In this document: positions 31,875 to 60,792 of the stretch, in pieces
How the letters are laid out: every line of letters begins with the position of its first letter
Position numbering within the stretch: position 1 is the stretch's first letter
NCBI GenBank assembly: GCA_018343915.1
Contig: JABRWF010000008.1
Span: forward strand, 2,790,001-2,854,000
DNA from: Agroathelia rolfsii
Lineage: Eukaryota > Basidiomycota > Agaricomycetes > Amylocorticiales > Amylocorticiaceae
Direction: 5' to 3'
Length of the DNA: 64,000 bases
The notes under the pieces: model-generated
What the model saw: only the letters and a program-made list of their open reading frames with translations
Told to the model about the DNA's origin: nothing
Databases searched by the model: none
Program-made: the position numbers and the translations under genes

Positions 31875-31880
31875 CGGGCC
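31875..31880. repeat. Target-site duplication, left copy (CGGGCC)
   Basis: Identical to 60312-60317 on the other side of the 28.4 kb element. The same CGGGCC occurs once, undisturbed, at 25608-25613 upstream of copy C. Confidence 0.75.
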
Positions 31881-31904
31881 TATCCTCGTCCAAAGTGGAC
31901 AAAA
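31881..31904 (+). repeat. Left terminal inverted repeat
   Basis: 24 bp, imperfect inverted match (19/24) to 60288-60311. The outer TATCC and inner GTGGACAAAA are identical at both ends. Confidence 0.7.
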
Positions 31905-31920
31905 CCCTGTATAATATTGT

Positions 31921-32125
31921 CAATATATATATATATACATATATATATGTATATATACATATATTCTATATATTCTTATATACAGTATATATATATCTGT
32001 ATATTTCTGTATATTTGTCAAGTGTTGCTTAGATGTGTGTATATAGGAATATATATATATTCCTATATAATGCACCTACATTGCATATTGCGTATATAGG
32101 AATATATATATATTCCTGTATACAG
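31921..32125. repeat. Left subterminal A/T array with palindromes
   Basis: Runs of TATATA units with interspersed CTGTATATTTCTGTATATTT, and two copies of a palindrome TAGGAATATATATATTCCTA-like (about 32044-32069 and 32096-32120). It is non-coding; apparent reading frames here are repeat artefacts. A similar array lies inside the right end. Confidence 0.7.
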
Positions 32126-32322
32126 GCACACAATTGCAACAGCTCGGCTAATGGCCTAATCTGATGCTAGATCTAATGTGAGATCTGATTTCGGCTGAAC
32201 TCGCATACCTCGGCTGTTTCACTGTAGTATTTCTTGGCATTACATGCACGCATATGCAGCCAAGCAGAATCTTGTGAAGCCTACACTAGGACTTATTGCT
32301 CTACTGTTGTTAAGCTACTGGC

Positions 32323-34076
32323 ATGTCGCTACTCAACCCTACTGACCGCCTTGCAAACTTTGCGTCTAGCTTCCGGTCACTAAGCCAGACAGTCCAAGTT
32401 GCCCTAAGAACCCAGCTAGGTGATGAAGGCCGTCTTACTGAGAAGCGCAATGAAGTCTTGCGCTTTCGCGTTTCAGCCGAACAAGTAAGTAGCATAGGTA
32501 CATAATCAGCGCTTTAACAACCATATTAACAAGTACGCCAGCATAGAGATGCCTTTCCTGCCAATTTGTATGCAGAATTGTGTACTAGTCTAGAGCAGAT
32601 GCTTATAGAACTTAACAACGCACGAACAAAGTCCATCGACCCCTATAACGGCCCTTCCCTTGCTGTGTCATGGAAGGCAAGCAGTGGCTTGCCTGGCAGA
32701 CCTCGCATAGATATCGATCCTTCTTTTATGCAAACTGGACTGGGATTCGGCCGGGGTAGCATGGTTCAGATGGCTAAGGTTGCAAGGGTCTCTACCAGGA
32801 CACTCCGCCGTCAGGCCCAAGATGTTGGGCTCCGTGCGGTTCAGCCACCTCTCTTTGAATATTCTGAGGGTAGACCACCTCGTCGAATGCCTAACCCAGA
32901 GCCTAGCCCACCAGAGATATCAAATGGTGAACTGGACACTCTTGTAGCCAAGATTCTTAATCAGTTTCCTGGTTTTGGCCGAGGCCTGCTATGGGGAGCT
33001 TTACGTCGCATGAATATCTGCATCACCCGCCAAAGGGCCGTTGAGGCATATACACGAGTTCGTGGCCCTGCGCGCGCTTTTAGACCTCAAGCAATACAAC
33101 GCCAGCCTTACCAGGTTCCAGGTGCAAATTCACTATGGCATCACGATGGCCAGCATGGTCTTATTCGCTGGAAGATGGTTATACATGCTTTTGTTGATGG
33201 CAAGTCTCGGCTAGTGACTGGCATCCGGGTTTCCAACAACAATCAAGCTGCCACAGTCCTTTCTGTATTCCTTGAGGCAGTATCAGTTCATGGAGTTCCT
33301 TCACGAGTGCGCGGCGACCATGGCACAGAGAACGTTCAAGTAGCAGAGTGGATGGAGGCTCATCATGGTTTAAATAGGGGCTCTTATATCTGGGGAAAGT
33401 TCGTCATTCCTTTCTTTATTTTAGCCCTTGCATTCTTAGTTCTTCTAGGTCTGTCCATAATATACGCATTGAAAGACTTTGGGTTGATGTGACGCAAGGA
33501 TTTGGCGGAAAATAGAAGTCATTCTTTCAACTACTGGAAGCTTACTATGGCCTTGACCATTTAAACCCTACACATATATGGCTTATTCATTATATCTTTC
33601 TCAATGCTGTTCATGGCGATGCTCTTGACTGGGCAGAGGCATGGAACAACCACAAAATTCGGCTGACCCACCAGGAGGATAAGTCTCCAAGGGAATTGTT
33701 TTTTTATAGCATGTACCTTGATGGACCTCGTGGACTGCAGAATCTGGAAGAAGACAACTACATTCAGGACCTGGCTCATTTTGGGGTAGACTGGGAGGAG
33801 TACAACAATAGCGCCCTTATGGGACATTTTTGGGGGGAGAACGCCAGCCAGATGGATCGGCCCAATCCATTTATTGTAAGCGTCGGCCGACCGGCGGATT
33901 TATCCCACGTACCTTGCAATCCTCCGAATTCACCACTGTCTCCTGAACATGAAGAGACTCTACGTGTATACTTAGCAGAGCATCCTGCTATAGCTTTGCA
34001 GCAAATGGAAGCTCGCCTGCAGGTCTGGGTAGATGTATTAGAATTCTGTAGTGCTAGGTTTAATACCTCTGGATAA
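32323..34076 (+). pseudogene. Integrase-core (DDE) transposase, one in-frame stop
   Basis: Three exons: 32323-32484, 32542-33398 and 33449-34076. The two introns (57 and 50 bp) are frame-preserving. The N-terminal part has a basic helix-rich region (MAKVARVSTRTLRRQAQDVG, helix-turn-helix-like). The catalytic core shows the first Asp in SLWHHDGQHGLIRW, the second in SRVRGDHGTENVQVAEW, and the Glu in SVHNIRIERLWVDV, i.e. a D-D-E triad. A TAG at 33513-33515, directly after TQGFGGK, interrupts exon 3, and the frame is then open to 34076. The family is the rve-like integrase-core proteins common in agaricomycetes. This copy probably makes no full-length enzyme. It lies 440 bp inside the left end of the giant element and is the likely source of mobility for its family. 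Confidence 0.8.
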
Positions 34077-34273
34077 GATTCTATGTTTAGCTTACAATTG
34101 TTGTATGCGCTGTTAATTGTATTTCCCTGCTACTATAACTTTACGGAAGTTTTAAAACCCTCGGCAAACTATAAGGCACTATGGAGCTGTGCTATTATAA
34201 GCGGCAACTGCCAGTTCAGTAGTTAGCATCAAGCCCCAGTCTAAGTTTTCTCCTACCATATCCAATATGCTTC

Positions 34274-34278
34274 CCCGT
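34274..34278. repeat. Gypsy target-site duplication CCCGT, left copy
   Basis: CCCGT directly before the 5' LTR, repeated at 41451-41455 directly after the 3' LTR. Confidence 0.9.
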
Positions 34279-35237
34279 TGTTACGAGTCGATCCTTGTAT
34301 TATAATTTTATTCCGAATTTTTCACTATTTTTCTGATTTTTTCCCGATTTTTCTCTATTTTTTGATGTATATATTGTACATTACGTAAGCGTACACTCTG
34401 ATGACTAAGCAAGTCATGTGACCAGTCGACCATGTGACTGGCCATCATGTGACCACTAGTCATGTGACATATTATGTAAACAGAGTCTAGAGCATGGGTC
34501 CGGATCATGACACCACTTTGACTCACCATAACTAATAATGGTGCAATATCACGCCATACTTAGCATTACTGCGCACAGACCATGTAGCTGCGCACAGACC
34601 AGGTAGAATTAGTATATAACCCTGTAGTGCCTCTACCTGAAGACCCCAGATTCGTTCTCTTCGTCTTCAGGTAAGCACAGTAGTGCTTTGTATTAAATAA
34701 ATGCTAACATAATAAAAACTTCGTCTTCAGAGCCTATCTCTCTCTCTCTCTCTCTCTTCCCCTCACAAAATCCTCCCTGCTCCGTGCTAAGAGGTAACCA
34801 GTGTGCTTAGTGCTACTGGTTGTTTAGAGGCTGCTCCGTGCTCCTCTACGTTAGAGCGCATAAGACAGGTCCAGCCCATTGGGTGACCATTTGCGTCTCT
34901 GTAAACAAATACATAGTGCTTAGTGCACTCAAGTAAGCAAAGGCATTGCCCTGCGCTTATCGCGGTTAAGATACATCGCACGCCTAGCGGCATACACAAG
35001 ATAACCGGTGTTCTGCGTGTAGACCCTGCTTGAAAGTCTTGTAGACTTAGAGTAAAGCTCGGTGACACAAAGACTCTAGTTTGCATGACAGCTGCAACAG
35101 CGCAAGGAAGTGTACACCCGCGCATCCCTAGCCTTGGGAGTTGTAAAATAGCCGTTACTTGGCTACCCCGTACCTTTGAGGGGTTGACGTAGGCCTAGGT
35201 TGAGTTTTGGTGGCAAGAGTCAGGTGTGCTCTTGACA
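34279..35237 (+). repeat. Gypsy 5' LTR (959 bp)
   Basis: Starts TGTTACGAG and ends CTCTTGACA. The U3 part has four CATGTGAC motifs between 34415 and 34468 and a near-perfect 19 bp direct repeat (CTGCGCACAGACCATGTAG and a one-base variant). A TATATAA box lies at 34613-34619 and a CT microsatellite near 34737-34756. The expected transcription start is about 30 bp after the TATA box, near 34648. Confidence 0.95.
34613..34619 (+). promoter_or_regulatory. TATA box of the gypsy LTR
   Basis: TATATAA placed about 30 bp upstream of AGATTCGTTCT (34648-34658), the segment complementary to the putative primer-binding site. Confidence 0.65.
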
Positions 35238-35239
35238 TT

Positions 35240-35250
35240 AGAACGAATCT
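35240..35250 (+). other. Putative self-primer binding site
   Basis: AGAACGAATCT starts two bases after the 5' LTR. It is the exact reverse complement of AGATTCGTTCT at 34648-34658, which would be the 5' end of the transcript. In Tf1/sushi-type elements the first bases of the RNA fold back to prime reverse transcription. This arrangement fits that mechanism. Confidence 0.65.
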
Positions 35251-35831
35251 CCCATTCATCCCTTTCTGCGCTAGTTGCTTTGTGCACTAGAGGAGGTGTA
35301 ACGAGCCTCGTTATTTGAAGCAAAAGAACAAGACACATACACAAATTCAGTAGACTACCACGGACACTTTACTTACAAAAGTAGTAGTTTTCAAATTCGC
35401 ACGTTTCTTTATTTTTGGGAAATTCTTGGCTGGCTTGCGCTTGGTGTTAGAAAACCAAGGGTGCATCAGTTTTCACGAGCTATTAAAGGGAACACAACCC
35501 GAGTGGATAGACGTGAAAGGCTCCGGCCGACACAAGTAGCCCATATAAAGCAAACCTTTTGAAGTAGAATAGGCCTAGCTTCAAGGGCAAAAACAAACTT
35601 TTACACACAAATTCGTTTTGGGAGTCTCCAGTCTTACTGTTGAGCTTGCCCATCATTTCACACCCAAACCCACCACGAGAACCCACTCCCCCTCAGCCTG
35701 AGTCAGAAGCAGAATCCTCAGAAGCAGAGTCATCTGAAGAGGAGTCTTCTGACGAAGAAAATCCTACATTTTTTCCTCCGTTCCCATCCGCACACGCCTC
35801 TGCGCACAACTCCCCTTGCCCCCAATCACCA

Positions 35832-36926
35832 ATGGCTCAACAAGTCGACAACGCTGCATTAATGCAGCAGCTCATCCAGAACCAGACGATGATGATGCAA
35901 TGGATGCAGCAGCAAAATGAGTCACGAGGCAAGCCAAAAGAGATTGGCCATGCGCCACCTACGTTTGACGGACAATGGATTAACTACCATCCATTCTTAC
36001 AAAAATTCCAAGCGTACCTGGAATTAAATCCAAGAGTGTACGTTACGGACAAGGAAAAGGTGAAATACCTTTTGGGTTTAATGGTGGAAGGTGCCACGGC
36101 TTGGTCCAGCCTGTGGTATACAGAACTAGGACTACAAAACCGGGTACCTGGGCCCGTAACATACCAGGAAGTAATCGAAAGTTTTAAATCCTTATTTGGA
36201 GCTTTTGATGAAAAAGTAGCGGCTAGAGATCAGCTGCGTCACCTACGACAAGGCACTACATCCACGAGGAATTTTGGGATGGCCTTCATGTTGCTGGGTA
36301 AAAGGACAGGGTTATCTGATGATGACCTCCGAGAAAAGTACCTGGAGAGGATGAACGTCAAGCTACGACGTATTATCACAGGATGGGATAGGGACACCTC
36401 AACCCTAACCAAGTTGATAAATGCAGCACACGACGCAGAAGTCAACTTGATGAAAGAAGAAATGTTGTCCAGTAAGAGATACTGGTACAACAATAACCCC
36501 CAGTCAGACCTCCAGTGAAACGATCCTGACGCTATGGATATTTCAGCTACTATATTGGGAAGGACACCCAATACATCAAAAAACCCATTCCTGAGTGCAG
36601 GTCCTGCTCAGCAGACCTCCCCGTTGCAAGTGGCTGCAACACAAAATAATCCGACCATGCAATCCAATAACCCTTTTAGGCGAAAGGATATCATTTGCTA
36701 CAACTGCCAAAAGAAAGGGCACGTAGCGCGGGACTGCAGAAGTCCAAAAGCTGATAAAGGCAGCTCGAACAATCCTTTCCAGAAGGTGGCAGCAGCATCA
36801 GCGCCAACACCAACACCAGCGAACCAGGGGCCGACAAGTAGCCCGATGACACAGGATGACATGTTTAACATGATCCAAGAGCAGGGCCAAATGATTGCGG
36901 CCTTAAAAGACAAGCTGGGTTTTTAA
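35832..36926 (+). pseudogene. Gypsy Gag with one in-frame TGA
   Basis: The first ATG is at 35832 (MAQQVDNAALMQQLIQNQ). The same frame is open further upstream to about 35640, with an acidic Ser/Glu/Pro-rich stretch. The capsid region includes IGHAPPTFDGQWINYHPF and LGLMVEGATAWSSLW. A TGA at 36516-36518 interrupts the frame. It resumes through MDISATILGR to a zinc knuckle CYNCQKKGHVARDC (CX2CX4HX4C) near 36696-36740, and ends at TAA 36924-36926. Gag forms the virus-like particle and packages RNA. The stop separates capsid from nucleocapsid, so this copy probably needs Gag from another copy. Confidence 0.85.
36917..36923 (+). promoter_or_regulatory. Candidate -1 ribosomal frameshift heptamer
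   Basis: G GGT TTT in the gag frame, immediately before the gag stop TAA 36924-36926, fits the X XXY YYZ slippery consensus. A -1 slip enters a frame that is open from here through the pol ATG at 36977 and on to 40480. Confidence 0.6.
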
Positions 36927-36976
36927 ATCGGTCAGAGTATGCGGCCAATGCTACTGACCAATTTGTACAAAATAAA

Positions 36977-39900
36977 ATGTCTTCTATTTTTACTTCTTCT
37001 TCTTTTTCGATTTCTGCTTCTTCTGTACAAGGTGTGCATGGACAACACCTAAATATACCTATTATGTTCCATGGACATTTCTCTACTATTTCTATGTCAG
37101 CTATGATTGATTCCGGAGCAACCTCCACTTTTATAAACAAAAAATTTGTAGAAAAACATAATATAAAAACTTCACCGTTACATAAAAAGATTCCTTTGTA
37201 CAACATAGACAACTCCCCCAATGCAATCGGTTTCATTTCAGAATACGTTACACTTTTAACCCAAATTGGACAAGAAAAACGACGACTGGTGTTTCTAGTA
37301 GTAGACATTGGTACCGAAGATGTAATCTTAGGTATCGACTGGCTGAGGCTGGAAAATCCCGTCATCAACTGGAAAAAGGGAAATGTAACCTTAATGGATG
37401 ATTTACTAAAAGATAAGGAATATAAAAAAATTAATAAAATCATAAAAGATGAGGAATCTCCTCCAAAATTGGCAGCGACATCGGGTTTGCCACCCCAATA
37501 CCAACAACACGCCAGGGTATTCTCCGAAGCAGAGTCCCAACGATTTCCTGCCAGCAAACCATATGACCACAAAATTGAGTTGGTGGAAGGAGTAGAGATG
37601 AAGCAAGCTAAGGTATACCCCCTGTCGATTCCGGAGTTAAAAGAGCTAGATGCGTACTTGGAGGAGAACCTGGCAAAGGGTTACATAAGAAAATCCCAAA
37701 GCCCTTATGCCTCACCTTTCTTTTTCATACCCAAGAAAAATGGAAAATTAAGACCTATAGTGGATTATCGTCGACTAAATAATATCACTATAAAAAACTC
37801 CTACCCATTACCGCTCATTTCCTCTATTGTCGATGGACTCTCTAGGGCTAAGATATTTACTAAATTGGATTTACGATGGGGATATAATAACGTACTCATC
37901 AAAGAAGGACACCAAGAGCGGGCAGCATTTATAACCCCTCGAGGACTCTTTGAACCCCTAGTAATGACTTTTGGTTTATGCAATGCCCCAGCCACATTCC
38001 AAGCTATGATGGACGAAATATTCGCAGACCTAATTGCACAAGGATTAGTATATGTGTATATAGATGACATCATTATTGCCACTGCCAACCTAGAAGAACA
38101 CCGACAATTGGTACACGAGGTTTTACGAAGATTAGCAGAAAATGACCTATTTGCAAATCTAGAAAAATGCCTCTTCGAAGTACCTAAGGTGGAATTCCTG
38201 GGTGTAATAATTAGCTACAACCACGTACAAATGACCAACGAAAAAGTCCAAGCAATCTTAGACTGGCCTGTTCCGAAGACAGTCAAAGATGTGCAAAAAT
38301 TCAGAGGTCTAGCTAATTATTATCGGAGATTTATCAAAGGGTTCAGCGATATTACTAAGCCCCTTGATAAATTAACAGGCAAAGGTGCTTGGAGATGGGA
38401 AAAGGAGGAACAGAAATCATTTGACGATCTCAAAAAGGCTTTCACTACAGCCCCAGTGTTAGCAATATATGACCACCAAAGAGAAAGTCGAATTGAAACT
38501 GATGCCTCGGGTTACGCAACTGGCGGAGTCTTCTCCCAGTTGCAGGATGATGGTGAATGGCACCCCATTGCTTTCCATTCCAAATCCATGGATGATGCTC
38601 AACGAAACTATGACATCTGGGATAAGGAAATGTTGGCAATTATCCGAGCATTGGAAGAATGGCGTCATTATATCATTGGATTGCCCAAACCGGTAGAAAT
38701 TTGGTCTGATCATAAAAACTTGGAGTATTGGGCAACAAGTCAGCATTTGAGTCGACGACAAGCACGATGGTACAGGATCCTACAAGAGTACAATTTTACC
38801 TTGTGTTATAAAAAAGGATCGACCAATGGACGAGCTGATGCCCTATCCCGACGACCAGATTTTTACACGGAAGATTCTCAGGACAATCTCAATGTCACCG
38901 TTTTACAACCCGCCCATTTCAAAATCATGGCTGCAAAAAGAGGTCATGTTTTGGTTGAAGGAGAAAAGGAGATCCTGGCAGAAGTTAGACGGGAGAGCAC
39001 CGAGTTGCTGGAATCCCTCTATCAGATTGTCAAGATAGGTCTACGACGAATTGCCTTGGGATTACAGGATTGGGAAACAGAAGATGGACTAGTGCTATAC
39101 AAAGAAAAGGTGTTTGTGCCCCCCAATAAAAGTCTGAAAGAAAAGATTTTGGCCAAATACCATGACTCGGCACTAGCAGGACACCCAGGACGCACCAAAA
39201 CGCTAGAGCTTATCAGCAGAAATTACTACTGGATTAACATGACAAAAGAAATAAACCAATATGTAGATTCTTGCCTACTATGTCAAGCGAATAAACCTAG
39301 CAGACAAGCATTACCTGGATTACTTCACCCTCTCCCCGTACCAGGCAAACCATGGGAACACGTAACCTCAGATTTGATTGTCAAATTACCCAAGTCACAT
39401 GGGTTTGACTCAATTCTAGTGGTAGTAGATAGGCTAACAAAACTGGCACACTTCATACCAACCAATGAAAACATCTCTGCCAAAGACGTAGCCGAACTAT
39501 ATGTCAAAAATGTGTTAAAACTTCATGGTACACTGTCAACATGGACCTCGGATCGTGGCCCCCAGTTTGCAAGCCAAGTGATGAAAGATATACACGCAAG
39601 TTTACACATCAAGACTGCGTTGTCCACTGCATACCACCCACAAAGTGATGGACAAACTGAGCATGTAAATCAGGAGGTAGAACAATACCTTAGAATTTTC
39701 TGCAATCACCGGCAAACAAATTGGGTAGATTGGCTACCTTATGCGGAATTCATGCATAACAATAGGAAAAATGAGAGTACACGCACAAGTGCTTTCGAAC
39801 TCACCTATGGTTACATTCCAAATTGGGAAGCCAAAGATATCCCAGATCCAACTCCAGGGGCCTTCAACTGGATAGAAAATGCCAAGGAAGCACGAAAGGA

Positions 39901-40480
39901 GGCTCAAACAGCGTTAGGGATGGCAAGAGAGCAAATGGAACAATCGTACAACAAAGGAAAAAAGATGTTCCCGGACATTGAGGAAGGACAGGAAGTTTGG
40001 CTTAATACACGGAACCTGAAGCTTGATAGACCATCCAAAAAACTAAGTCAAAAATGGATTGGACCCTATAAAGTACAGAAGAAGCTGAACGACCTGAACT
40101 ACCAATTGGACCTTCCAGACAACCTCAGAATCCACAACGTCTTTCATGTCCATTTACTAAAGCCTCATCATACCTCAGACCGTCACCAAAAACCGCTGCC
40201 TCCTGTAGAAGTGGAAGGAGAAGAAGAGTACAAAATGGAAGAAGTACTCAATTCGAGATTGCGGCGCGGAAAATTGGAGTTCTTAGTAACTTGGAAAGGA
40301 TATCCAGGGGAACAAACCTGGGTCAGAGAATCCGACATGCACGCAGACGATGCTATCAAGGATTTTTACAAAACCAATCCAAGTGCACCAAGAAAGATTA
40401 GTGCAGCAACTTTTGGACTTCTACCCTTCCAAAGCTGGGACAATTTGATGGAATGGCAACCCGAGGCGGATTGCCCCTAA
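36977..40480 (+). CDS. Gypsy Pol polyprotein with C-terminal chromodomain
   Basis: The first ATG gives 1,167 residues, and the frame is also open upstream to the gag overlap. Aspartic protease has DSGAT near residue 45. Reverse transcriptase includes GKLRPIVDYRRLN and the active site VYIDDIII near residue 362. RNase H has ETDASGYATGG near 509. The integrase zinc domain has the H...H...C..C pattern, with HDSALAGHPG and DSCLLCQANK. The integrase core has Asp in TSDLIVKLP, Asp in TSDRGPQF and Glu in GQTEHVNQE. A chromodomain follows, with EEYKMEEVLNSRLRRGK and FLVTWKGYPGEQTW. Chromodomains direct integration to particular chromatin. No stop or frameshift is visible, so the enzyme set appears functional. 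Confidence 0.96.
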   Translation: MSSIFTSSSFSISASSVQGVHGQHLNIPIMFHGHFSTISMSAMIDSGATSTFINKKFVEKHNIKTSPLHKKIPLYNIDNSPNAIGFISEYVTLLTQIGQEKRRLVFLVVDIGTEDVILGIDWLRLENPVINWKKGNVTLMDDLLKDKEYKKINKIIKDEESPPKLAATSGLPPQYQQHARVFSEAESQRFPASKPYDHKIELVEGVEMKQAKVYPLSIPELKELDAYLEENLAKGYIRKSQSPYASPFFFIPKKNGKLRPIVDYRRLNNITIKNSYPLPLISSIVDGLSRAKIFTKLDLRWGYNNVLIKEGHQERAAFITPRGLFEPLVMTFGLCNAPATFQAMMDEIFADLIAQGLVYVYIDDIIIATANLEEHRQLVHEVLRRLAENDLFANLEKCLFEVPKVEFLGVIISYNHVQMTNEKVQAILDWPVPKTVKDVQKFRGLANYYRRFIKGFSDITKPLDKLTGKGAWRWEKEEQKSFDDLKKAFTTAPVLAIYDHQRESRIETDASGYATGGVFSQLQDDGEWHPIAFHSKSMDDAQRNYDIWDKEMLAIIRALEEWRHYIIGLPKPVEIWSDHKNLEYWATSQHLSRRQARWYRILQEYNFTLCYKKGSTNGRADALSRRPDFYTEDSQDNLNVTVLQPAHFKIMAAKRGHVLVEGEKEILAEVRRESTELLESLYQIVKIGLRRIALGLQDWETEDGLVLYKEKVFVPPNKSLKEKILAKYHDSALAGHPGRTKTLELISRNYYWINMTKEINQYVDSCLLCQANKPSRQALPGLLHPLPVPGKPWEHVTSDLIVKLPKSHGFDSILVVVDRLTKLAHFIPTNENISAKDVAELYVKNVLKLHGTLSTWTSDRGPQFASQVMKDIHASLHIKTALSTAYHPQSDGQTEHVNQEVEQYLRIFCNHRQTNWVDWLPYAEFMHNNRKNESTRTSAFELTYGYIPNWEAKDIPDPTPGAFNWIENAKEARKEAQTALGMAREQMEQSYNKGKKMFPDIEEGQEVWLNTRNLKLDRPSKKLSQKWIGPYKVQKKLNDLNYQLDLPDNLRIHNVFHVHLLKPHHTSDRHQKPLPPVEVEGEEEYKMEEVLNSRLRRGKLEFLVTWKGYPGEQTWVRESDMHADDAIKDFYKTNPSAPRKISAATFGLLPFQSWDNLMEWQPEADCP

Positions 40481-40491
40481 GGAGGGGGTAA
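40478..40491 (+). other. Polypurine tract
   Basis: AAGGAGGGGGTAA abuts the 3' LTR start at 40492, the expected plus-strand primer of an LTR element. It overlaps the pol stop codon. Confidence 0.75.
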
Positions 40492-41450
40492 TGTTACGAG
40501 TCGATCCTTGTATTATAATTTTATTCCGAATTTTTCACTATTTTTCTGATTTTTTCCCGATTTTTCTCTATTTTTTGATGTATATATTGTACATTACGTA
40601 AGCGTACACTCTGATGACTAAGCAAGTCATGTGACCAGTCGACCATGTGACTGGCCATCATGTGACCACTAGTCATGTGACATATTATGTAAACAGAGTC
40701 TAGAGCATGGGTCTGGATCATGACACCACTTTGACTCACCATAACTAATAATGGTGCAATATCACGCCATACTTAGCATTACTGCGCACAGACCATGTAG
40801 CTGCGCACAGACCAGGTAGAATTAGTATATAACCCTGTAGTGCCTCTACCTGAAGACCCCAGATTCGTTCTCTTCGTCTTCAGGTAAGCACAGTAGTGCT
40901 TTGTATTAAATAAATGCTAACATAATAAAAACTTCGTCTTCAGAGCCTATCTCTCTCTCTCTCTCTCTCTTCCCCTCACAAAATCCTCCCTGCTCCGTGC
41001 TAAGAGGTAACCAGTGTGCTTAGTGCTACTGGTTGTTTAGAGGCTGCTCCGTGCTCCTCTACGTTAGAGCGCATAAGACAGGTCCAGCCCATTGGGTGAC
41101 CATTTGCGTCTCTGTAAACAAATACATAGTGCTTAGTGCACTCAAGTAAGCAAAGGCATTGCCCTGCGCTTATCGCGGTTAAGATACATCGCACGCCTAG
41201 CGGCATACACAAGATAACCGGTGTTCTGCATGTAGACCCTGCTTGAAAGTCTTGTAGACTTAGAGTAAAGCTCGGTGACACAAAGACTCTAGTTTGCGTG
41301 ACAGCTGCAACAGCGCAAGGAAGTGTACACCCGCGCATCCCTAGCCTTGGGAGTTGTAAAATAGCCGTTACTTGGCTACCCCGTACCTTTGAGGGGTTGA
41401 CGTAGGCCTAGGTTGAGTTTTGGTGGCAAGAGTCAGGTGTGCTCTTGACA
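40492..41450 (+). repeat. Gypsy 3' LTR (959 bp)
   Basis: Same length as the 5' LTR. I noticed three substitutions (corresponding to C/T near 34500, G/A near 35016 and A/G near 35084). Followed by CCCGT. Confidence 0.95.
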
Positions 41451-45221: not shown

Positions 45222-46066
45222 GATTTTTTTAAGAGAAGGTGGTTGCCAAGAAGATAGCTGGAAAAGGCATAGGCAGGCAGGGGTTTCTTGCGGAGCCCAT
45301 GCGCCTGAGCATATGGCAGCCTAACTTATTGGGCTGAAGCCGTGCGGCCATGCTCAGCTGAGACCCCGCGGCTAGCGCCATGCTGGCTATGCCGTTTATA
45401 GGCTGAAGCCATTAGCCTGAGCTGCGCTGCCGTCCTAGCCAGCATCAAAGAAAAAAGTTTTTGCATGTTCTTAATATCAAAAGGGCATTAATTCTAATAT
45501 AAGCAATTTGTTGGTCTCACAGATATATAGCTGTATGAATTTCTGTATTTTGGCGCATTTCAGTATAATTAATCTTTTGCATTATCAACTTGCATCGCTC
45601 TACAGAACTTCTCTGCCTTCAAACTTGATGTTACAATGCGCCTTCTGTATAGTATGGATAAAATAAAATTTGATTGACTATACATTTAAATTTAAAGATA
45701 ATTATCATATAACCAGAAATGTAGATATCTGGGTGGATTTTGTCAGATTTTGGCAGAGTAGCTTTCCACTGGGGTTGGCGGTTTGCGCCTGTAAAAAAAG
45801 GGGTGCGCTTGGCTACAAATGCTTATTAAAACTAAATTATGAGGCAAACAAGGCCAGCAGGGGCTTGTAAGCGTCAGGGCAGAAGCAGGAGGACCGGACC
45901 CGCGACGTTACATGCATACTTTATTGAAGGCGATATCATCTTCACAGGAAAACGAAAGACAGTATCAAAACGTGTAAGTGACTCACGTGACGTTAAGTTG
46001 TAGCCTTTGTCCTCATCCTCACCTCACCTGCGTTACCTTCTATTAGCTCACTAGATCATATCCAAA
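45222..46066. other. Element interior, no convincing gene
   Basis: About 840 bp. 45310-45430 repeats GGCTGAAGCC-like units (for example GGGCTGAAGCCGTGCGGCC). The rest is A/T-rich. It may contain the promoter of the dioxygenase gene. Confidence 0.45.
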
Positions 46067-48045: not shown

Positions 48046-48069
48046 AAAGTTAAACAAAGCCTTAGGTAT

Positions 48070-49250: not shown

Positions 49251-51573
49251 TTAACTTGAAGCTTCTGCTGGACCCTTTTGCCCTGGTGCAGGCTCTGGCA
49301 GATGGTATGTAACCCAACACCCTTTAAGGCTGGATCCTTTGACTTCTTTAACCTCCATAGGCCGCTGCCTCACTTTGCGCCATTCGCATTCAGGATTCTG
49401 GCATTGAAGGACGACGGCTTGCTCATGAAGTGCACCAGCCTTGGCAGCTTCTAACCCCCGCCCTTCAAGCCGCGCAGCAAACGAATCAACGCGCTTGCAC
49501 AAAGGGCATTGGGCTAGCGTGCTCTCTCCAAATGGACGATGGAGCGGGTTATGCCAAGCATATATAGAGCCCGAAGGATCATCGGGCGAAGCGTAAAAGA
49601 TGGAGGAGTGCTGTGGCATTGTTACAGACAAAATACAGATATCCTCTATGCAGTCCTTCAAGGGGAAACGGCCAATCAGAACCTTATAGCAGAACGTCAG
49701 CATCATGTTCTGGGGGAAAAGTGTTAGCAGGGCAAGAGCTGTAAAGCCGATAACGTGCTGGATTCCGACACTAAGTCGAGGCCTTTTCATCAGCAGCGGT
49801 AAGAGAATTGGTCTGACTAAAACTCACTGTGTTATGCCCCGGAGCAGAGATATGCGGGACTCTTCCCAGCTAATAACTTGCCCGCATGCTATTAGCCAGA
49901 GATACGTGCTGCTACACATTTTGATTTCCTCAGCAAGGGGTCCAAGGATGGTTTGAAGCGCCTATGCCAAGCGGATGAGCTGCGATTTGAATAATACAGC
50001 CCAGCAATGCAACTGTCTACCTCCTCAGGCGGAAGAGCCCCATTCTTCTCGACATTCAGTTTGCCGGTGGTGGTGTCCGAGTGTGTTGTGAGAACTACTA
50101 GAATTTGTTCAGGGCGGAGGCTAGAGAAGGTCAGCATTTAATACTTTGCCATGCAGTAAAGAAAATAAGAAAATTTACCCCCGTAACTTTAACCTAAGCC
50201 CATCCAAAACCTTTTGATGGCCCTCCAAAGCATCGTTATCTTTAATGTTGAATGATATGTCTTCACTTAGAAATGTTGGCAGGGTGCCGCCTTCATAGAT
50301 ATTTTCATACCATCCTGCGAGGTACCTGCGAGCCACAGCGCCAGGCGAAGTATCCATGGCCAATGGAGTAAATGTAAACAGATGCAAATTGATGACAGCA
50401 ATGGTTGAACTCGAGAAATGCTGCCGAGGAGGGCCAACAAAAGAGCCTTGTACATCTAAGGGTTTTGTAAACGCAGGTTTTAGCAAGGGAATTAATGAGT
50501 ATTGGAGGCGTCGGCCAGGCGTTTTTGGAAGTTCAGGTTTATAGAGCCCCTAGGGCAATACGTGAGGCTGGCTGTGTTAAGTGATAGAGAAAACTCACCA
50601 TGTAAGGAGGCTTGGATCCTTCAGTATATCGCTTCCCATCCTTGTCAAGAGAGGAATAGCATGCCTTGTTGAAGCAGTAGATACATGCAAACGCAAGCTT
50701 ATTTAGGTTGGACTTTCTGGGTATTTTGTAGCAGTCAAGGCACACGCTTCAAGGGCAGAAGTCGCAGGCAACCTGGGCTTGATCCCCGCATTTATGACAT
50801 CCCTAAGATTTTAAACCTTAGCAATAAAGGAGAGAGGCAGTAGAGCCGAAGGCAGCATACCTGATCATGGCCGCGGGGCAAGCCGTTATACAGAATCTTA
50901 CCTGGCAGCAACTTTACTCTGAGTGAACTCTAAATCAATTGGGGCATGCGTTAGAAGGGCAAGGCCTGGCCAAGCTTGAGGCGATCTGTCTTACATCCGC
51001 GTCCATTGCGGTAGATGAAGCTGGCTTCATAATGGCGGCATTAGCAAAAGATAAAAGTAAAGGCCAGTGCAATAATGAAAAAGGCTACATACTTCTTGCC
51101 CAGGGGGAGGCGCTGGGTGCTGAAAAGAGCCGTTGCTTAAGGCGCTGCTCTACACTCCTAAAAAAAAAAAATCTTACCTCAACGCCCATAGAAGCTGTAG
51201 TTTCCTGCTCTGAGGAAGGCGCTGGACGCTGAAAAAAGCTGTAGCTCTAGAAATCCCTCTATGCCCCTAAAAAAGATCTCACCTTAATGCCAAGAGAGGC
51301 TAGGGTTTCGTTCATCCTGCGGAGTTTGGCTGAACTCACATCCACGCCTACTTCAGACCCTGCAGGCTCCTCCGCTGAGATCGTGGGGCGGGGGTTGCGG
51401 CCTCTACTTGGAGCAGAGCTGCTTGTCTGCTCCCGAGATCTCTGGCGAGTGAGGCGGCCTGTTAAAGAGAACGTGTGCAGCTAAGCACGCGGATGCAGAG
51501 CAGATAGAGCCCTAAACTTACCTGAATCCTTGGCCTTGCCTTTTTTTGACAGGCTTTGTTTGCTTTGAGACAT
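49251..51573 (-). pseudogene. Zinc-finger protein with possible caspase-like core and C-terminal zinc ribbon
   Basis: ATG 51573 starts MSQSKQSLSKKGKAKDSG, a basic disordered N-terminus (SREQTSSSAPSRGRNPRPT). A treble-clef cysteine cluster follows near 50650-50810: CHKCGDQAQVACDFC, CLDCYK and CIYCFNKAC. A TGA at 50749-50751 lies inside this cluster. The middle region has VAVINLHLF-like sequence, YLAGWYENIYEGGTLPTF, then ILVVLTTHSDTTTGKL and, further on, YLWLIACGQVI. The spaced His (TTHSD) and Cys (ACGQ) resemble a caspase/CHAT-type dyad. A C-terminal zinc ribbon has CPLCKR...CQNPECEW, with the stop at 49251. I have a general memory of related agaricomycete proteins but no family name. Two poly-T intron ends lie near 51160. 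Confidence 0.5.
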
Positions 51574-51806: not shown

Positions 51807-54800
51807 ATGTTCCCATCCTGGTACATGACTTTCAAGGCCCTTGTTGATGAAAGGCAGAAAGAGTACAATGCGGCTGGCAGCAGTGTTGAGAGGATGCAAA
51901 TCACCCGTGCCACAATGGCCGCCATGACTGCTGAGGCCAAGAAAAAAAATTGGGGCCTTCGTCCCGACCAAGAACAGGTAAGAGCTAAGCCATATTGCAT
52001 AATACTTATTGTCTTAATTGAATCTTGCACCATAGGCACTAGCCCAATGGTTTGATAGCCACGCCAAGGAGGCCGCGCTGTCCAGTGAGAAAGAGACCAG
52101 CCGCTACGGCCTTTCTCAATGGATTGAAGTTTGCCGGAGCAAGGATGTGTTGGCTAGAATACGCACTCGCTCTGAGCAGGATGTCAAGTTCGGCAATCCT
52201 ACCTTCCGGCGCCACTTTGCGGCTGTTGTGAACCAGATGCTGGAGGAGCTGGACCAGCCTGAAAATGCAGAAAGGAAACAGGAGGGCGTGCGGTGGGTGA
52301 ACTCCATGCAGTCTTCTGGCTTTACCCAGCAAGAGCAACAGAGGTAAGCTAGCCTAACATCAATGCGCTACACTCAGATCAATTAACAAAAAAAAACAAC
52401 CTTAGGCTTGCTGCTGCTGAGCTACAGGGCTACCTGCAATCTGTTTCCCGTACACTTCAGGATCGCTTTGGAGCTCACGGTTTGCTTTTTGTTGGAACAA
52501 AAGACGGCAATTCTCAGTTGCCTGAAATTCTATGGTGCGTGCATTGCTACATTTATACATAGCTATATCTTAACTCTTTAAGCCGTTAGTCAGGAGCCTC
52601 ATCCTCGAAGCGGAGAGGGATTCATGACAATGTACAAACCGGTGCTCGAACACCTTAAATATGAAGATATCACTCAGTATATTGGCGAGCAGCTAAGTAA
52701 GGCAGAATTGTTAGCTGATGTATTGCTTGTAATGCTTATTTCACAAGGTGTGGTAGAGCCAACTGCAGGCGAGGCGCCTGCAGCGGCATCCTCATATCCA
52801 AGCCCAGCGCCTGCGGCTCCTCTACTGCCCGCAACCCCCCCAATGCCTCCCACCATATGCAGTCCAGCTCCAAGCACAGAGGCGTCGCCACCAGCCCCCA
52901 AAGCGCCGGCCCGTCAGGCGTCTAAGAAGAAGGGGAAGGCGCCAAAAAGGGGGCCAGCAAAAAAAGAGAATAGATGGGAGGACTGGCCTGCTGTTTTGCC
53001 CGATCGGCGTGGGCAGCCAATCTTCCCAGAACCTTGGGCTGCCGGGGACGCTCTGAAAACCTCAGATGGGTTAGAATTTCTCAAGTATATAATAAGAAGA
53101 ATTTTAACAATATCATACCGTAAGCAATATAAAGTGCATCCTTACATACTAAGTAGCTGAGATATCAATTTCCTTAGAAACTTTTTGTAATAACTTAAAG
53201 GCATCTGTGCCCTGGGCAGGGCTCCAAGACAGCTCAGGAGAAATTCTGTCAGCACAGTCCTGGCCAGAAGCAGTGCCTATGAAGGATCCCACCAAGCTGA
53301 CGCGTCAAGAAACTGAGCAAATTGTCGCATTTTATAGAGAGCTATTGGGAAAAAAGGAAGAGATTGAGTGGGTTGGGCCTCGCTCAAGGGCTCCGGGGCA
53401 TAGCATTGACTTCTTGGCACAAGGCGCAGGTCATGGAAGCTCAAGACACAAGTACATGCAGCGCATGTTCAACAAGAAGGACCTTGACTTATCATCCAAC
53501 GAAGATGCATGTACTTACCAGGCTGCTTTTGAGGAGGCGGCGCCAGAGCATACGGATCCGGCTATGCAGTCTAGACCTGCAGTACAGTGCAAGGGCAAAG
53601 CGCAGGCGCCGGGCGCTGGCTCTGAAGCTGACGAGAGCGAGCTGCAGGAGGCTGTTTCAGAAGCTGCTGAGGAGCCAATGCCACAACCTGCTACGCAGCA
53701 GAAGGGTAAAAGCCGCAATCGCCAGCCGCTGCCAAGCCGCGCTCCCCCCTCTGCCCCCACCCCTGTTCTGGCCGAACCAGCGGTCTCTGCCGCCCCTCTT
53801 ACTCCGGATGAGTTAAGAGCCCGCTTACAGACTGAAGCAGAAAAGTTCTGGGAAGCTGAAGATGCATGGAATGCTTTTGGACTGGAGGCTTCATCCAGCT
53901 CTAAGGCCCAGAAAAAAGAGGCTGGCCTGAGAAAACGCCTTGCAATAGCAAAGGCGGCAATGGAAAAGACAATTCAGGAGCTCCAGGCAGCAGAGGGCGC
54001 TGCGCATCCAAGTAGGACGCCAACGCCTCCAACCGAGAAGGATGACGGTGTGTATATTGTGATGCAGATGCTTTTTTATTGTAGGTTGCTGACTTTGCGT
54101 TTCTAGATATGCCGGTTGATAAGAGCTCGGATGAAGACGCAAATCCCAAATTAGAGCTTTCTCTTCTTGGCAAGCGTCCTCGCGGCAGTAAGCGACCCAT
54201 AGCTCTGTCAGAAGACTCAGACCATGGCCACGCCCCTATGAGCATTGACAGCATAGACCCTGACAACCAGGCGGCATCCCAGCTAGCTTTCTTAGCTGGA
54301 AAAACTTCAATGTCTGTATTTGCATCAGCTGTGAGCCTGATGAATGGATGCGCCCTGCCGGTGAGAAATCATCTTGTTTCTCTGAGAGCTTTACTGGTAC
54401 TTACTTTCTGACTATATAACCGCAAGAATTGGCCCAATCACTCAGGGCAGCCTACAGGCCAGCTTTCTGATTGGCTTGATTGGAGAACCCCACAGAGCGT
54501 GTTAGATGAGGGGTTAGCTGCCCTTCACCAGCCAGAGGTGCACAATCATCTTCGCAGCGTGATACGGGAGGAGGTTCGCAGCTTTTCTAATCTGCCATAC
54601 CGGCATGCCCAGCGCTGTCTGTTTGCCATTGGTCTACTAGAGAGAGAGGCTATCAAGGCAATAGAGACAGAGGCAGATGACGAGGTGGCAGCAATGCATT
54701 TACGCCTTTCAGAGCTGGGTGTACAAGAGCTGGTTGACCTTGAAGAGATCACACATTTGGTCAAAAAGCAGCTAAAAAAATTGGGCCAGCCCAGCCAGCC

Positions 54801-54993
54801 AAAAGGTCAAAAGCAGCAAGCAGTGCCAAGGTCAGAAGCAAGGATTTATTCAAGCTAGTCTCAAGAATAATAGCATCTCATGATTTGTTGTAGGGAAATA
54901 CAGCCAAAAGCTTCTGTTTCAGGCCAACTCTCTGAAGATGAACTGCCCCCTGCAGCTGAGCCAAGAAAGAGGAGGAAGCCAAGAAGAAATTAA
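51807..54993 (+). CDS. Long basic, Pro/Ala-rich element protein (possibly two genes)
   Basis: ATG 51807 (MFPSWYMTFKALVDERQKEY). About eight exons with 50-90 bp introns follow, ending at TAA 54991-54993 after EPRKRRKPRRN. The first third is helical and unrecognised (WFDSHAKEAALSSEKETSRY, FGNPTFRRHFAAVVNQMLEE, LLFVGTKDGNSQLPEILW). Next comes a Pro/Ala-rich linker with a strong nuclear-localisation-type stretch (KKKGKAPKRGPAKK), then a segment LTRQETEQIVAFYRELLGKK. A predicted coiled coil (KKEAGLRKRLAIAKAAMEKT) and a C-terminal helical region (VHNHLRSVIREEVRSFSNLP) follow. I do not recognise a family. Nuclear location is inferred from the basic patches. The junction near 53100-53200 is uncertain and could separate two genes. 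Confidence 0.5.
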
Positions 54994-55539
54994 AGCTTGC
55001 AGGGCGTATATCAGGGCAGCATCCTCTTTGGCACCTTTGATTCATACTTTAATCCTTTTTCTTGCGCACATGCAAAGATGCTGGTGATCTCTGCTGATCC
55101 GCGCCTATGCGTCGCTGCTGCTATGCTTGCCGTCTGCTCTACCTTTCTTTTTACCCACTGTTTTTTATTGCAGGTGTATATTTCCTTTGCTCTCATTAGC
55201 GCAGCATATTTATTTTTATTTGATTCTCTTATATAATGGCTATACACTTGTTATATTTAATCTTCATCCTTTCTAGAGATTCCAAGAGTGTATAATAATG
55301 GACTAACGCTTAGTGTTGCCTTTAAGTTTCCCCTCGATAAACCCTTTGATTGTCAGAAGGATTGCAAGCATGAAGTTCTAAATGGCTGAATAAAAAGCTT
55401 GCGGTGCTAGAAGATTTGCTTCTATTTAATTATAAACATATGCTGTTTAGGTTAGGCCTTTGCCGCGCGGACGGGCGGTACTGCAGATGCTCCTGGGGGG
55501 GTGGGGGGCGGACAAGCCGGGTGATTCTGGACGAATCAC
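54994..55539. other. Element interior, 3' region of the long plus-strand gene
   Basis: About 550 bp. A short hydrophobic reading frame is present but lacks conserved features. G-rich run near 55490-55510. Confidence 0.4.
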
Positions 55540-55800: not shown

Positions 55801-55942
55801 CAGGCTTAACTGTAGTTGCATTTGGGATAAACAGTTGCTAGGACAAAAAAAAGGCAAGCTGGCAAAACTTTTGCAGGATAACTGAGCTTTAATGAAAGAC
55901 AAGCAAAATACATGCAAGGCATATTTTCTTTACATAAGAGCG

Positions 55943-58900
55943 CTATGCCTGATTAAAAGAAGACGCGTTTACTACAAGTAGGTTGTGAAGCCAAATCTCA
56001 AACGCCGTTGATGTCAGCTGATCATTGCTTCTGGACACAAGGTGAAGAGCGACAAGGCGCTGGAAAAAAGAGTCTGCATATATCTTGGCTGATGAAAAGC
56101 AGGTGTGAATAGATGAGGCCTCGATTGCATCTGACTGTATATTTGAAGTTAGCCTAGTAAAGGGTTTTCAAAAAAAAAAAAAGCCTTACCGATGTAGGGC
56201 TAATGAGCGTCCACTATAGATAATGAAGTCAGAGCAAAGTACAGATTAAGCAGCTTGGGCTTACTTTGAGATTCCAATTTGATTTGCTTGGACGATTCGG
56301 GGATGATGACAGAGCTATAAGCATTAGAGTTGCGCAAAGTGTCTCTAGGGTTGTACTAGGAAAGCTGCTTGGAAGCTCAAGTACTGGAGACTCTGGCAAA
56401 CTCTTTGGTGGCCCAACACCCAGAATGTAATCCTGGATGGCACGACAAAACCCATGGTAGACTGCCCTATTCCTCCTCCCATCTTGAGAGCTATTATCAA
56501 ATTTAGGGCTGCCATTGTTAAAGTTATACTTGAGTGCATCCTCCATGTAGCACTGTTCGCTTTCTGTGCTGATTGGAAAACGGAAGCTTGGGGCAGCATG
56601 GACCTGGATGTGGTTGGCTACGTCTCTAACGTCTTCAGAAGTAGAGACCTGCCGACAATACAAACTCAGCACAGTGCGGGCAGGCCCTTTAGAATGCAGC
56701 ATAGCTGAGCTCCTATATAGTGCCTAGTAAAACTATTGAGCTCTGATAGAATGCTAGTGTCTAAGAAACTAGTGCATACCTGCCGTATGCCTCTGCCTGA
56801 AGGCAGTTGGGAGTTGAACCCAGCCCTAAAGCTATGCCAACCCTTACGCTCAAAGAAGGTCTCATCATTGAATGCAACTTTGGCATAGATAGCTAGTGTA
56901 CGCTCCTGATGTTCAGCTTTAGAGAGCTTGTACTGGCCATCAACTGAAGGTTAACAAAGACGGCTAAGAGGCCTCTAAAGACCTAATGTTAGTTACTTAT
57001 GGTTGGAATAATTTAGAAATCTCATACATGCCACTGGAACTCTGTCATAAGAAACTGAGCCAAAGGGCTTGTTAGGGAATGCTCAAGAGGAGCATCAGGC
57101 TGGACATCAAACCAAGGAGCCATACGACAAGCAACATCTGGAGCCAAGATCTGAAGAAACTCTTGAGGCGTACTAACTAATGCGTCTCCTATATCCTCTG
57201 CTAGTAAGGCAAGGACAACTAGTGGCGACACCATCAATGGGGCCTCATATAGTAGTGTTAGGAATAAAGCAAGAAGCTTTCCAGCCGCATTCCATTTCAA
57301 CTCAGCCTCTTTATTGTCAAAAGAGTTAAAGGCTGGTATATAGGTGGCATCATTTGTGCAGCTCCACCTAGCTGTTAAGACCTCGAGTGTTTGCGCTTGA
57401 AGAAAGGCTGCTCTACGGACCCCATCTCCAGTGCTAACAATAATGCTGTTGTGCTCATCCAGCTCATCAATACTAAAAAAAGTTAGCTTTGAAATAGTAT
57501 TAAGAAAGTAGGAACTTACATATTGATTTCACAAGGTATTCTAAAGAATGAGGCCAGCAAAGTTGGATAGGATTTACAGATGACGCCTTCCGGAGGCTCA
57601 GTAGGAAGTGGCTGCTCTAGCTCCAAGGCTGCCATATACTCTAGTAGCCATACAACTCCTTGACCAAGAATTTCTTCTGTGCAAGCACCCAGGTTAATAT
57701 TGGGTAAGTAAGGACTAATTGTTGGGGAAAGGTAATGGCTGGAAATAGTAAGCAGCTTCCTAAGCTCACGTAAGCTGAAGAGATCAGCAGGGTTTGGGTT
57801 TGGCCGAGCTATAGGGGTGGGTAGCAAAGGCATAGGAGACTCAGCCCTAGGAAGAGCTATGTCTGAAAAGACAGGACTCCTGCTGGGAGTATTGGAAGGT
57901 GCACTAGCTATTGGTGCACCTTGAACGTTGGTAAACCCAAAGAAAGTGTCTTCCTGGCTAGGCAGCTAAGCAACACCGATAAAAATCCAAAAAAGTTAAC
58001 TTTGAAATAAAAATAAAATAAGTACCTCAAGCAAAGTTTGCTTAGGCGAAGGGGCACCTAATGCCATCTAGAACACAATTTTTATGCTTTAAATAGGGTA
58101 TAAAACTTGAGAAAACAGAAGACTTACTGAAGAAGACCGCTCTCGTACAGTACCAATAGTATTAGGAGGGTCAGTAGATGTAGAAGATGGCCTGGGGCAG
58201 GTGGTTCTACATGCAATTATTGATGGGTTGTGCTCAACCTCTACATTCAAGTCTTCAATCCTACAGTATACCAATCTACCATAGCATCCATGTAAACCAG
58301 GTAGGCGAGCATTGTCTTGACTATCTATAAAGTGCGATTGACTACGAGATAGGTCCTCATAGCGCATTCCTAGGTAAATCTATCAGTAAAATAATAGTAA
58401 GATAATGAAATTTAGTACAAACCCATAAAAACAATGAGCGTCTGAGGCTCTAGTGGATGGACTAGCTTGGTTTGTTTCAGCTTTTTCAATAATACATAGG
58501 CTGGGCTTAGGATAGCCTTGTTAGGTGTAAAGCGCAGCCTATCAGCCTCAGACTCTGGATTGCTTCTGCGGCCAGGTTTTACACCAACTTTTGCAAAACA
58601 AAATGGGCCATCCCATATGCTAACCAACTCAGAGGATAGCCAATTTGACCCAGGGCCTGTAACATGGAATTTGCGGTTAGGAAGCTCTTGTTTGATTAAA
58701 GCCTCTATCTCAGGCCAAATAGAATCATCTCTTGAAGATGGCCGCACATCCAAGCGGAAGATAAGACCTTCAGATTGAAAGATGTCATATGTTTCTCACC
58801 ATAGGTGAGCTCTGCATGAGGCCTCTAATCCATTTGGCATGCTGCTAATATCTGATAGCTGATAACAGAATAAAAATTAAATGAAGGGAGATACATAATA

Positions 58901-59342
58901 GATGAAGAAAAACCTTGATTGGAAGAAGAACTAGCTCTATGGAAGTAGGGGGAGGCATTTGACCTGGTGCAGCTAGAAATCTACGCCTTGATGAGCTTGC
59001 TCTTGAGGATAGGCGAGCTGGGTCTGCGTGACGAGCTGCCTCTTGACGACGACGTGCATCTCCACCTAGAGGGTTTGGGGCTTGTTGTATAGGATTATTG
59101 AATGTGAACTGGCCAGTAAATACGGAAGAGGTAGCTGCCCGTTGCCCAAAAGAAGTTGGCCCAAATAATGTAGGGAGGCCTGGCTGTGCACTTGAAGAGG
59201 AATGTGCACTAGGAGGAGGGCTGGTAGAGCTAAAAGCTGGTGTGCCCTGAGCTAGACTAATAAGTGGGTGGGTATGCTTTGGATCTCCACAAATACAGGA
59301 ATATAGGAGGGAGTTGGCTGAAACCTGAATGCTGCTTTGCAT
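55943..59342 (-). CDS. HECT-like large protein, multi-exon
   Basis: ATG 59342 starts MQSSIQVSANSLLYSCIC. The N-terminal part is Ser/Pro-rich, followed by RASSSRRRFLAAPG. Middle exons include WPEIEALIKQELPNRKFHVT, FCFAKVGVKPGRRSNPESEA, and LLALFLTLLYEAPLMVSPLV. The C-terminal third contains FFERKGWHSFRAGFNSQLPS, LYCRQVSTSEDVRDVANHIQ and RAVYHGFCRAIQDYILGVG. The last exon has SSIHTCFSSAKIYADSFFQR and ends at TAG 55943-55945. HTCF near the end resembles the catalytic-Cys signature of HECT ubiquitin ligases, and the overall arrangement resembles HECT-like proteins I recall from agaricomycetes. Around 56,340-56,380 the frame changes across a segment that would need a 29 bp intron, so splicing or integrity there is uncertain. 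Confidence 0.45.
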
Positions 59343-60090
59343 AGGTAAATCCCAGAATGCCTTTGGAGATTGTTAAGCCAGCATTCTTATACCTAGAATA
59401 AGAGACTGTATACCGGCAGATAACCCAGGCAAATGCCTGGCTTTCCAGGAGACGGTCCCCTGGCAGGAAGGCTAGGCGTAGCAGCTAGAACGTGCTGGTC
59501 ATACGTATGATAGCAAATGCAAACGTCTTTAGCATGGGTGGCAATCTATAGAGAGTTGGTCTTAGTAAAATGCGCCTTCACCATTTAAAAGAAGATTGAA
59601 AATGAATTTAAAGCTATATTTCTACTTTGCTTTACTTTAAGAAACTAAGCAGTGTTGGAGCTACATACATAAGTAGCCTCATTGGCCATCCGGCGATAGG
59701 AGGTACAGGGCTGACTGCGGCAGACCTCATGCAAACAGGAAAATGCAAGATCTGGGAAGCTTGAAGTGGAAGAGGTAGGATGCATCTTATAGCGCTTTGA
59801 TTATGGCGTGTTGTTTCCCTAGGCAAGGAGGGGATGTGTAATAAAAGACAAAATACCAAAGTCTGCAAACAAAAGTCCGCCCTCAACAGCGCCTTATCAA
59901 GGCCTCACTACTCGGCTCAACGCATTTTGGTATCATCTATGCATGGCTAAACTAAATTCCGTCCCAAACACATGCTTGGCCGCCCCTACCGGCTATTTTG
60001 TCCAAAACATATGCTTGGGCCGTTCCTCACCGGATGAGGCCAATCTTTTGGGCCAAATGCTAAACATTTAGCCTAAGCTGAGATGGTGCC
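59343..60090. other. Right interior of the giant element, no gene seen
   Basis: About 750 bp. A short imperfect duplication occurs at 59970-60040 (AAACACATGCTTGGCCG and AAACATATGCTTGGGCCG). Confidence 0.4.
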
Positions 60091-60093
60091 TGT

Positions 60094-60272
60094 ATATAAT
60101 ATATATATATATATATATATTTCTGTATATTTCTATATATTCTTGCAAACAAGTACATGGTTTCGTATATATAACCTTTACCAACTACTAATGAATGCAA
60201 TATATATATATATATGTATATATATGTATATATACACGTATATATGTATATATATATATATATATGTATATC
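60094..60272. repeat. Right subterminal A/T array
   Basis: TATATA arrays and TTTCTGTATATTTCTATATA, resembling the array next to the left terminus. Apparent peptides here are repeat artefacts. Confidence 0.7.
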
Positions 60273-60287
60273 AAAGGACAAATTGTA

Positions 60288-60311
60288 TTTTGTCCACAAC
60301 GGCCGCGGATA
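60288..60311 (-). repeat. Right terminal inverted repeat
   Basis: Reverse complement begins TATCC and contains GTGGACAAAA at the same spacing as the left end. Confidence 0.7.
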
Positions 60312-60317
60312 CGGGCC
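60312..60317. repeat. Target-site duplication, right copy (CGGGCC)
   Basis: Matches 31875-31880. The following bases, GGTCACTGGCCG, match 9 of 12 positions of the sequence after CGGGCC upstream of GH95 copy C. Confidence 0.72.
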
Positions 60318-60775: not shown

Positions 60776-60792
60776 GGACCTGCAGTGATATG

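Follow-up and report, generated by a model that had tools for sequence, protein, structure and literature searches.

A TET/JBP dioxygenase gene carried by an IS3EU-like DNA transposon with precise ends in Agroathelia rolfsii

Study of a 64,000-nucleotide stretch of the Agroathelia rolfsii genome (contig JABRWF010000008.1, positions 2,790,001 to 2,854,000; hereafter the window) confirmed that it contains a DNA transposon bounded by terminal inverted repeats (TIRs) and target-site duplications, and carrying both a DDE transposase gene and a TET/JBP dioxygenase gene. The explanation which we consider very probable is that this is an IS3EU-like transposon of about 21.25 kb whose TET/JBP protein, of the CcTET type, would ease the silencing of the element and its ensuing decay. 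The window copy (W) spans positions 31881-60311, as defined by its ends and the flanking CGGGCC. The features of its boundaries are the following:

31875..31880, no strand: left copy of the target-site duplication, CGGGCC (sequence, empty site, end-pair check)
31881..31904, plus strand: left TIR, TATCCTCGTCCAAAGTGGACAAAA (sequence, other copies, genome pattern matches)
60288..60311, minus strand: right TIR, TATCCGCGGCCGTTGTGGACAAAA in minus-strand reading (sequence, other copies, pattern matches)
60312..60317, no strand: right copy of the target-site duplication, CGGGCC (sequence, empty site, end-pair check)
25608..25613, no strand: uninterrupted CGGGCC in a paralogous empty site (joined-flank alignment)

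Both ends and the duplication lie where a preliminary description of this DNA had placed them, and the inverted ends, given there as imperfect over 24 bp, agree at 19 of 24 positions. The paralogous empty site which it proposed was also recovered: once joined, the flanks of the element align with window positions 25011-25625 at 73.6% over 628 columns, spanning the junction and 12 bases further, past which the similarity is weak. The insertion point is about 250 bp upstream of the predicted start of a GH95 gene. Inside the window, TA-repeat pairs flanked by equal hexamers outscore the real pair of ends, and the within-window test of the ends is thus not decisive by itself. This, the agreement of the arms at only 19 of 24 positions, and the occurrence elsewhere of four end pairs devoid of duplications are what may be put forward for the idea that unrelated ends were paired by chance around ordinary genes and transposon debris. 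The genome (37.7 Mb in 8 contigs, including the window), which the preliminary description proposed to search for copies with the same ends and duplications, refutes that idea, to which we give practically no credit. It contains two other full-length copies, besides short relatives:

C1:1125475-1147521: full-length copy A, 22,047 bp, perfect 7-bp duplication GGTAATG
C1:5105056-5127492: full-length copy B, 22,437 bp, perfect 6-bp duplication GATATT

Both align with W along its whole length, and the divergence, calculated without a retrotransposon nested in W (see below) on 21.2 to 21.3 kb of aligned sequence, is 2.59% for W-A, 2.05% for W-B and 3.69% for A-B. Copies A and B thus share the ends and the internal sequence, each with its own perfect duplication, and a segmental duplication would not put different duplications beside the same ends. 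It was direct comparison with the window element that revealed the cargo of A and B; a genome DNA search with the cargo region (41500-60300), which skips common words, gave short matches only and missed it.

With up to three mismatches, the left-end pattern has 18 matches in the genome and the right-end pattern 15 (none for the reversed control in either case), while the strict pattern TAT-N11-GTGGACAAAA has 30 (control, 0). From the lists of end-pattern matches, 11 inward-facing left-right pairs less than 30 kb apart were drawn: W, A and B, three short relatives (760, 719 and 715 bp) and five others (72, 629, 1,549, 3,334 and 29,022 bp). The outermost bases are TATCC..GGATA in W, A and B, whereas the remaining eight pairs combine TATCC or TATCT with GGATA or AGATA. 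A perfect 6-bp duplication flanks four pairs (W, B and the 719- and 715-bp copies), and a perfect 7-bp one flanks A and the 760-bp copy (GTGCCAT); the perfect 6-bp duplication of the preliminary description therefore holds for the window copy, while the family as a whole makes duplications of 6 or 7 bp. The three short relatives have in common with the large element about 270 bp on the left and about 70 to 110 bp on the right, at about 70 to 86% identity, and in this sharing of ends they resemble non-autonomous derivatives.

Several further loci may be mentioned here. A 72-bp mini element (C1:5342590-5342661) consists of nearly nothing but both ends, and its duplication agrees at 5 of 6 positions. 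A right-type and a left-type end stand 29 kb apart at C6:3511623-3540644, without a 6- or 7-bp duplication. Three left ends, at C1:7965, C7:4113962 and C7:3992810, have near-identical flanks, which suggests a shared duplication; two of the three lie less than 18 kb from the end of their contig. Finally, a partial copy at C7:3945743 has kept a left end and pieces of the transposase, and no right end was found for it within the 36 kb examined.

The transposase gene is located close to the left end:

32323..34076, plus strand: DDE transposase (rva_4, PF24764); exons 32323-32484, 32542-33398 and 33449-34076; one in-frame stop in W

The integrase-core DDE gene announced by the preliminary description is thus an rva_4 gene (Pfam match on the main exon, E 4.1e-36), with its catalytic residues kept: D256, D313 and E348 are invariant in all 11 aligned sequences, i.e. 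the window protein and 10 of the 120 homologues listed. Altogether, 539 homologues were found at E 0.001 among 7,992 scored candidates (those sharing most words). Among the matches listed, the closest one is from Favolaschia claudopus (46% identical), and the named ones come from genera which we take to be Agaricomycetes. The two transposase open frames have no zinc-binding integrase family among their Pfam matches, unlike the frame of the nested Gypsy retrotransposon. The transposase models contain one stop in W, three in A and two in B. Because of these stops and of the C-to-T decay described below, the family is probably immobile in this genome, its copies being unable to move by themselves. 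A second rva_4 locus, around 4172 kb on contig C6, is a distant one, matching piecewise at 36 to 64%, and the surrounding 20 kb yielded no homologue of the cargo.

The TET/JBP gene is the best characterized part of the cargo:

43534..45466, minus strand: TET/JBP dioxygenase with AG-type residues (Pfam, CcTet structure match, genome loci)

Its product, which the preliminary description had already called TET/JBP-like, matches the Tet_JBP family of Pfam (E 8.5e-11) and the CcTet chains of PDB entries 7vpn, 7w5p and 8jkk (E 3.3e-16 and 3.4e-16), the sole match to a solved structure at E 1. AG-type TET proteins are defined by an HxD motif with Gly and Asp at CcTET positions 331 and 337 (PMC12730594). 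In the alignment, the window protein keeps HRD and both residues, and is thus AG-type by residues, not by tree. All three TET/JBP loci found in the genome, by protein search and by a search with PF12851, are inside W, A and B; the three exon matches of the latter search are significant yet under the family cut-off, and its exon-by-exon approach may miss split genes. Since these are the only TET/JBP loci found, removing the three copies would directly test whether a transposon-borne TET protects transposons.

The rest of the element consists of a retrotransposon, of further cargo genes and of repeats. The long terminal repeat (LTR) retrotransposon and its duplication are positioned as follows:

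34279..41450, plus strand: nested Ty3/Gypsy LTR retrotransposon, 7.2 kb, foreign to the native element (Pfam, copy comparison, LTRs)
34274..34278, no strand: left copy of its 5-bp duplication, CCCGT
41451..41455, no strand: right copy of its 5-bp duplication, CCCGT

Its LTRs (34279-35237 and 40492-41450) are identical at 956 of 959 bases, and it is found in W and not in A or B. For the 28.4-kb element of the preliminary description, the span was right, but 7.2 kb of it is this later insertion; the native length, obtained by subtracting the retrotransposon and one CCCGT, is about 21.25 kb. To the right of the element, window positions 60792-60817 match the terminal 25-26 bases of the nested LTR, and are perhaps the remnant of a related LTR. 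Tandem arrays occur inside the element at 46743-46851 (24/48 bp), 47657-47959 (157 bp) and 55533-55798 (34/68-bp units), and the copies vary in length near the last one. The other cargo genes are:

41669..43302, plus strand: gene B, about 490 amino acids, no recognised domain, start uncertain (gene models, Pfam only)
45902..46288, plus strand: SPC25-like fragment, C-terminal half of a signal peptidase subunit (Pfam, genome searches)
49254..50357, minus strand: cargo gene earlier labelled zinc-finger/caspase-like (gene models)
51807..55236, plus strand: large cargo gene, model up to about 1000 amino acids, ends uncertain (gene models; no Pfam match at E 1)
55943..59785, minus strand: large cargo gene earlier labelled HECT-like (gene model)

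Pfam scans covered the gene models and the open frames, and not every small exon. Apart from TET and the SPC25-like piece, no cargo gene has a match above a curated cut-off; gene B gave sub-threshold HTH_Tnp_1 matches only (E 0.023 and 0.043). The HECT-like and zinc-finger/caspase-like labels of the preliminary description are unsupported: the two proteins have no Pfam match, no homologue at E 0.001 and no PDB match at E 10. A relation could still be concealed by divergence or by errors in the gene models. For gene B (an exon-sized stretch) and the caspase region (an open frame), single-sequence folding gave mean pLDDT values of 35.5 and 38.0, respectively, and these folds were not used. The SPC25-like partial domain is present in W, A and B and, according to two exon-by-exon searches, nowhere else in the genome; either the element captured this fragment, or introns interrupt the host gene, which the searches then overlooked.

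How could such an element work? The DDE transposase would bind and pair the two TA..TA ends, excise the element and paste it at target sites cut with a stagger of 6 bp or, at times, 7 bp. Besides the CcTET-type TET/JBP gene, the element carries at least four genes without recognised function. Methyltransferases of the host, whose genome contains nine matches above the cut-off of the cytosine-methylase family PF00145, would put 5-methylcytosine on the element; TET would oxidise it and thereby ease both silencing and the C-to-T changes that ensue. The differences between copies have the features expected of methylation-linked decay. They are nearly all transitions (519 versus 30 for W-A), and private C-to-T changes affect CpG sites at 200 of 1,032 in A (19.4%), 106 of 937 in B (11.3%) and 27 of 689 in W. 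At CpT sites the figures are 13 of 3,238 (0.4%) in A and 16 of 3,239 (0.5%) in B, and at CpA sites they are intermediate (157 of 2,947 and 84 of 2,875).

Selection was assessed by comparing private transitions with 1000 simulations, using models made on W, which for some genes cover the better part only; P values are uncorrected. In the cargo of copy B we counted 35 synonymous, 42 non-synonymous and 0 stop changes, against simulated means of 23.0, 47.9 and 6.1 (P 0.001 for stops and 0.003 for synonymous changes). The transposase of the same copy is near neutral (6, 11 and 2, against 4.2, 12.8 and 1.9). Taken gene by gene, the synonymous excess in B has a P value below 0.05 only for the HECT-labelled (0.011) and caspase-labelled (0.025) genes; it is 0.57 for TET, 0.095 for gene B and 0.39 for the gene starting at 51807. 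Because about six private stops were expected in B and none was found, selection on its cargo is suggested. A bolder reading, on which we would not bet, is that TET and the other cargo proteins constitute a counter-silencing module under joint selection, in which TET would strip methylation and the others would act on other silencing layers.

A number of observations weigh against our explanation. As seen above, two of the 11 end pairs have a 7-bp duplication, and four have none (in one of these, of 629 bp, the flanks agree at 4 of 6 positions, and in the 29,022-bp pair at 4 of 5). The gene models come from our own simple predictor, and the model of the caspase region has one stop common to A and B and absent from W. 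The observed/expected CpG ratio is 0.51 in the cargo of W and 0.86 to the left of the element, but only 0.40 to its right, so that a low CpG content is no peculiarity of the element. According to studies cited in the text of PMC12730594 (Kojima 2025), no hypermutation was detected among Agaricomycotina, and the decay seen here sits uneasily with this. As to selection, the cargo of copy A has 44 synonymous, 106 non-synonymous and 12 stop changes against simulated means of 49.0, 101.9 and 12.0, which fits neutral decay; taken by itself, the TET gene shows no significant constraint in A or B. These last two points would be expected if the cargo genes, TET included, were passive passengers bringing no benefit to the element, and the SPC25-like partial domain in the three copies does resemble captured host sequence. 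Yet the cargo of copy B has no private stop and an excess of synonymous changes, and every TET locus found in the genome (3/3) is inside the element; we therefore regard the passenger hypothesis as rather unlikely, though it deserves consideration. 

The remaining unfavourable points concern the filing of the element as IS3EU-like. IS3EU is a named superfamily whose complete families, as described in the text of PMC10045372, invariably have TA..TA termini and usually duplicate 6 bp of target. In the element studied here, TA..TA termini occur in all 11 pairs, duplications are 6 bp in four and 7 bp in two, and the transposase is an IS3/IS481-like DDE enzyme without the HHCC zinc motif; on these grounds it is best filed as IS3EU-like. 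This placement follows published text criteria rather than a Repbase-based tree. IS3EU families with a TET gene were published in December 2025 for seven Pucciniales species and Tuber indicum (Kojima 2025, PMC12730594), which makes the earlier statement that no described fungal element class has this combination too strong; in our literature search, this was the only paper recognised as treating them. All these families are described with an alpha-kinase gene opposite in orientation to the transposase, and the rust ones with TIRs of more than 30 bp ending in TAYGG (PMC12730594). The ends of the present element are TATCC in imperfect 24-bp TIRs, and no alpha-kinase match was found in the scanned gene models and open frames (small exons not all covered).

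Might it then belong to a new class of giant fungal elements? For two of its cargo proteins no relative was detected, two others lack recognised domains, the duplications are of 6 or 7 bp, alpha-kinase was not found, and an AG-type TET is not reported in IS3EU in the text of PMC12730594. Against this stand the hundreds of relatives of its transposase, the TA..TA ends and the duplications of mostly 6 bp, both of which fit IS3EU (PMC10045372), and the fact that TET-carrying IS3EU elements are already published (PMC12730594). A new class seems to us very improbable, and an IS3EU-like transposon is what we retain.

What the present data contribute is a TET carrier of IS3EU-like type for which full-length copies, exact ends and an empty site are available. 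The group suggested by the relatives of its transposase is the Agaricomycetes, where the sections of PMC12730594 on Agaricomycotina and on TET phylogeny (supplements aside) name no TET-carrying IS3EU. The element also brings together in one place the two sides of a proposed methylation arms race, a predicted 5-methylcytosine oxidase and, in two copies, CpG sites of which 11 and 19% carry private C-to-T changes. If the counter-silencing module were real, a cut-and-paste transposon of a eukaryote would bear an anti-defence island of several genes.

Comparison with known systems helps to situate the element. Among large fungal elements with cargo, Starships come to mind (a paper on accessory chromosomes of Tremella also concerns them), but they use a tyrosine recombinase captain (PMC13066641), and none was found among the Pfam matches of the scanned gene models and open frames, the element having a DDE transposase instead. 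The hallmarks of Polintons/Mavericks are genes for a protein-primed DNA polymerase B, an ATPase, a protease and capsid proteins; none of these appeared among the Pfam matches of the scanned models and open frames outside the nested retrotransposon. The KDZ (Kyakuja, Zisupton) transposons of Agaricomycetes come closer in one respect, since they likewise associate an AG-type TET/JBP gene, as reported for Kyakuja and Zisupton, with a DNA transposon; their transposase differs, and two Kyakuja families have 7-bp duplications and no TIRs, while Zisupton has 8-bp duplications (PMC12730594), in contrast to the rva_4 transposase of the present element and its duplications of 6 bp in four and 7 bp in two of the 11 pairs. 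CcTET of Coprinopsis cinerea, with which the TET of the element has the HRD, Gly and Asp positions in common, is a characterised enzyme, whereas the activity of the latter is predicted from sequence. The nearest parallel is provided by the TET-carrying IS3EU elements of Pucciniales and Tuber indicum, which have in common with it a TET/JBP gene in a DDE transposon, TIRs, TA..TA termini and 6-bp duplications. They differ from it in the likely host group and in the type of TET, which is PU-type in rusts and PE-type in Tuber (PMC12730594), as opposed to the AG-type residues found here, and otherwise in their cargo.

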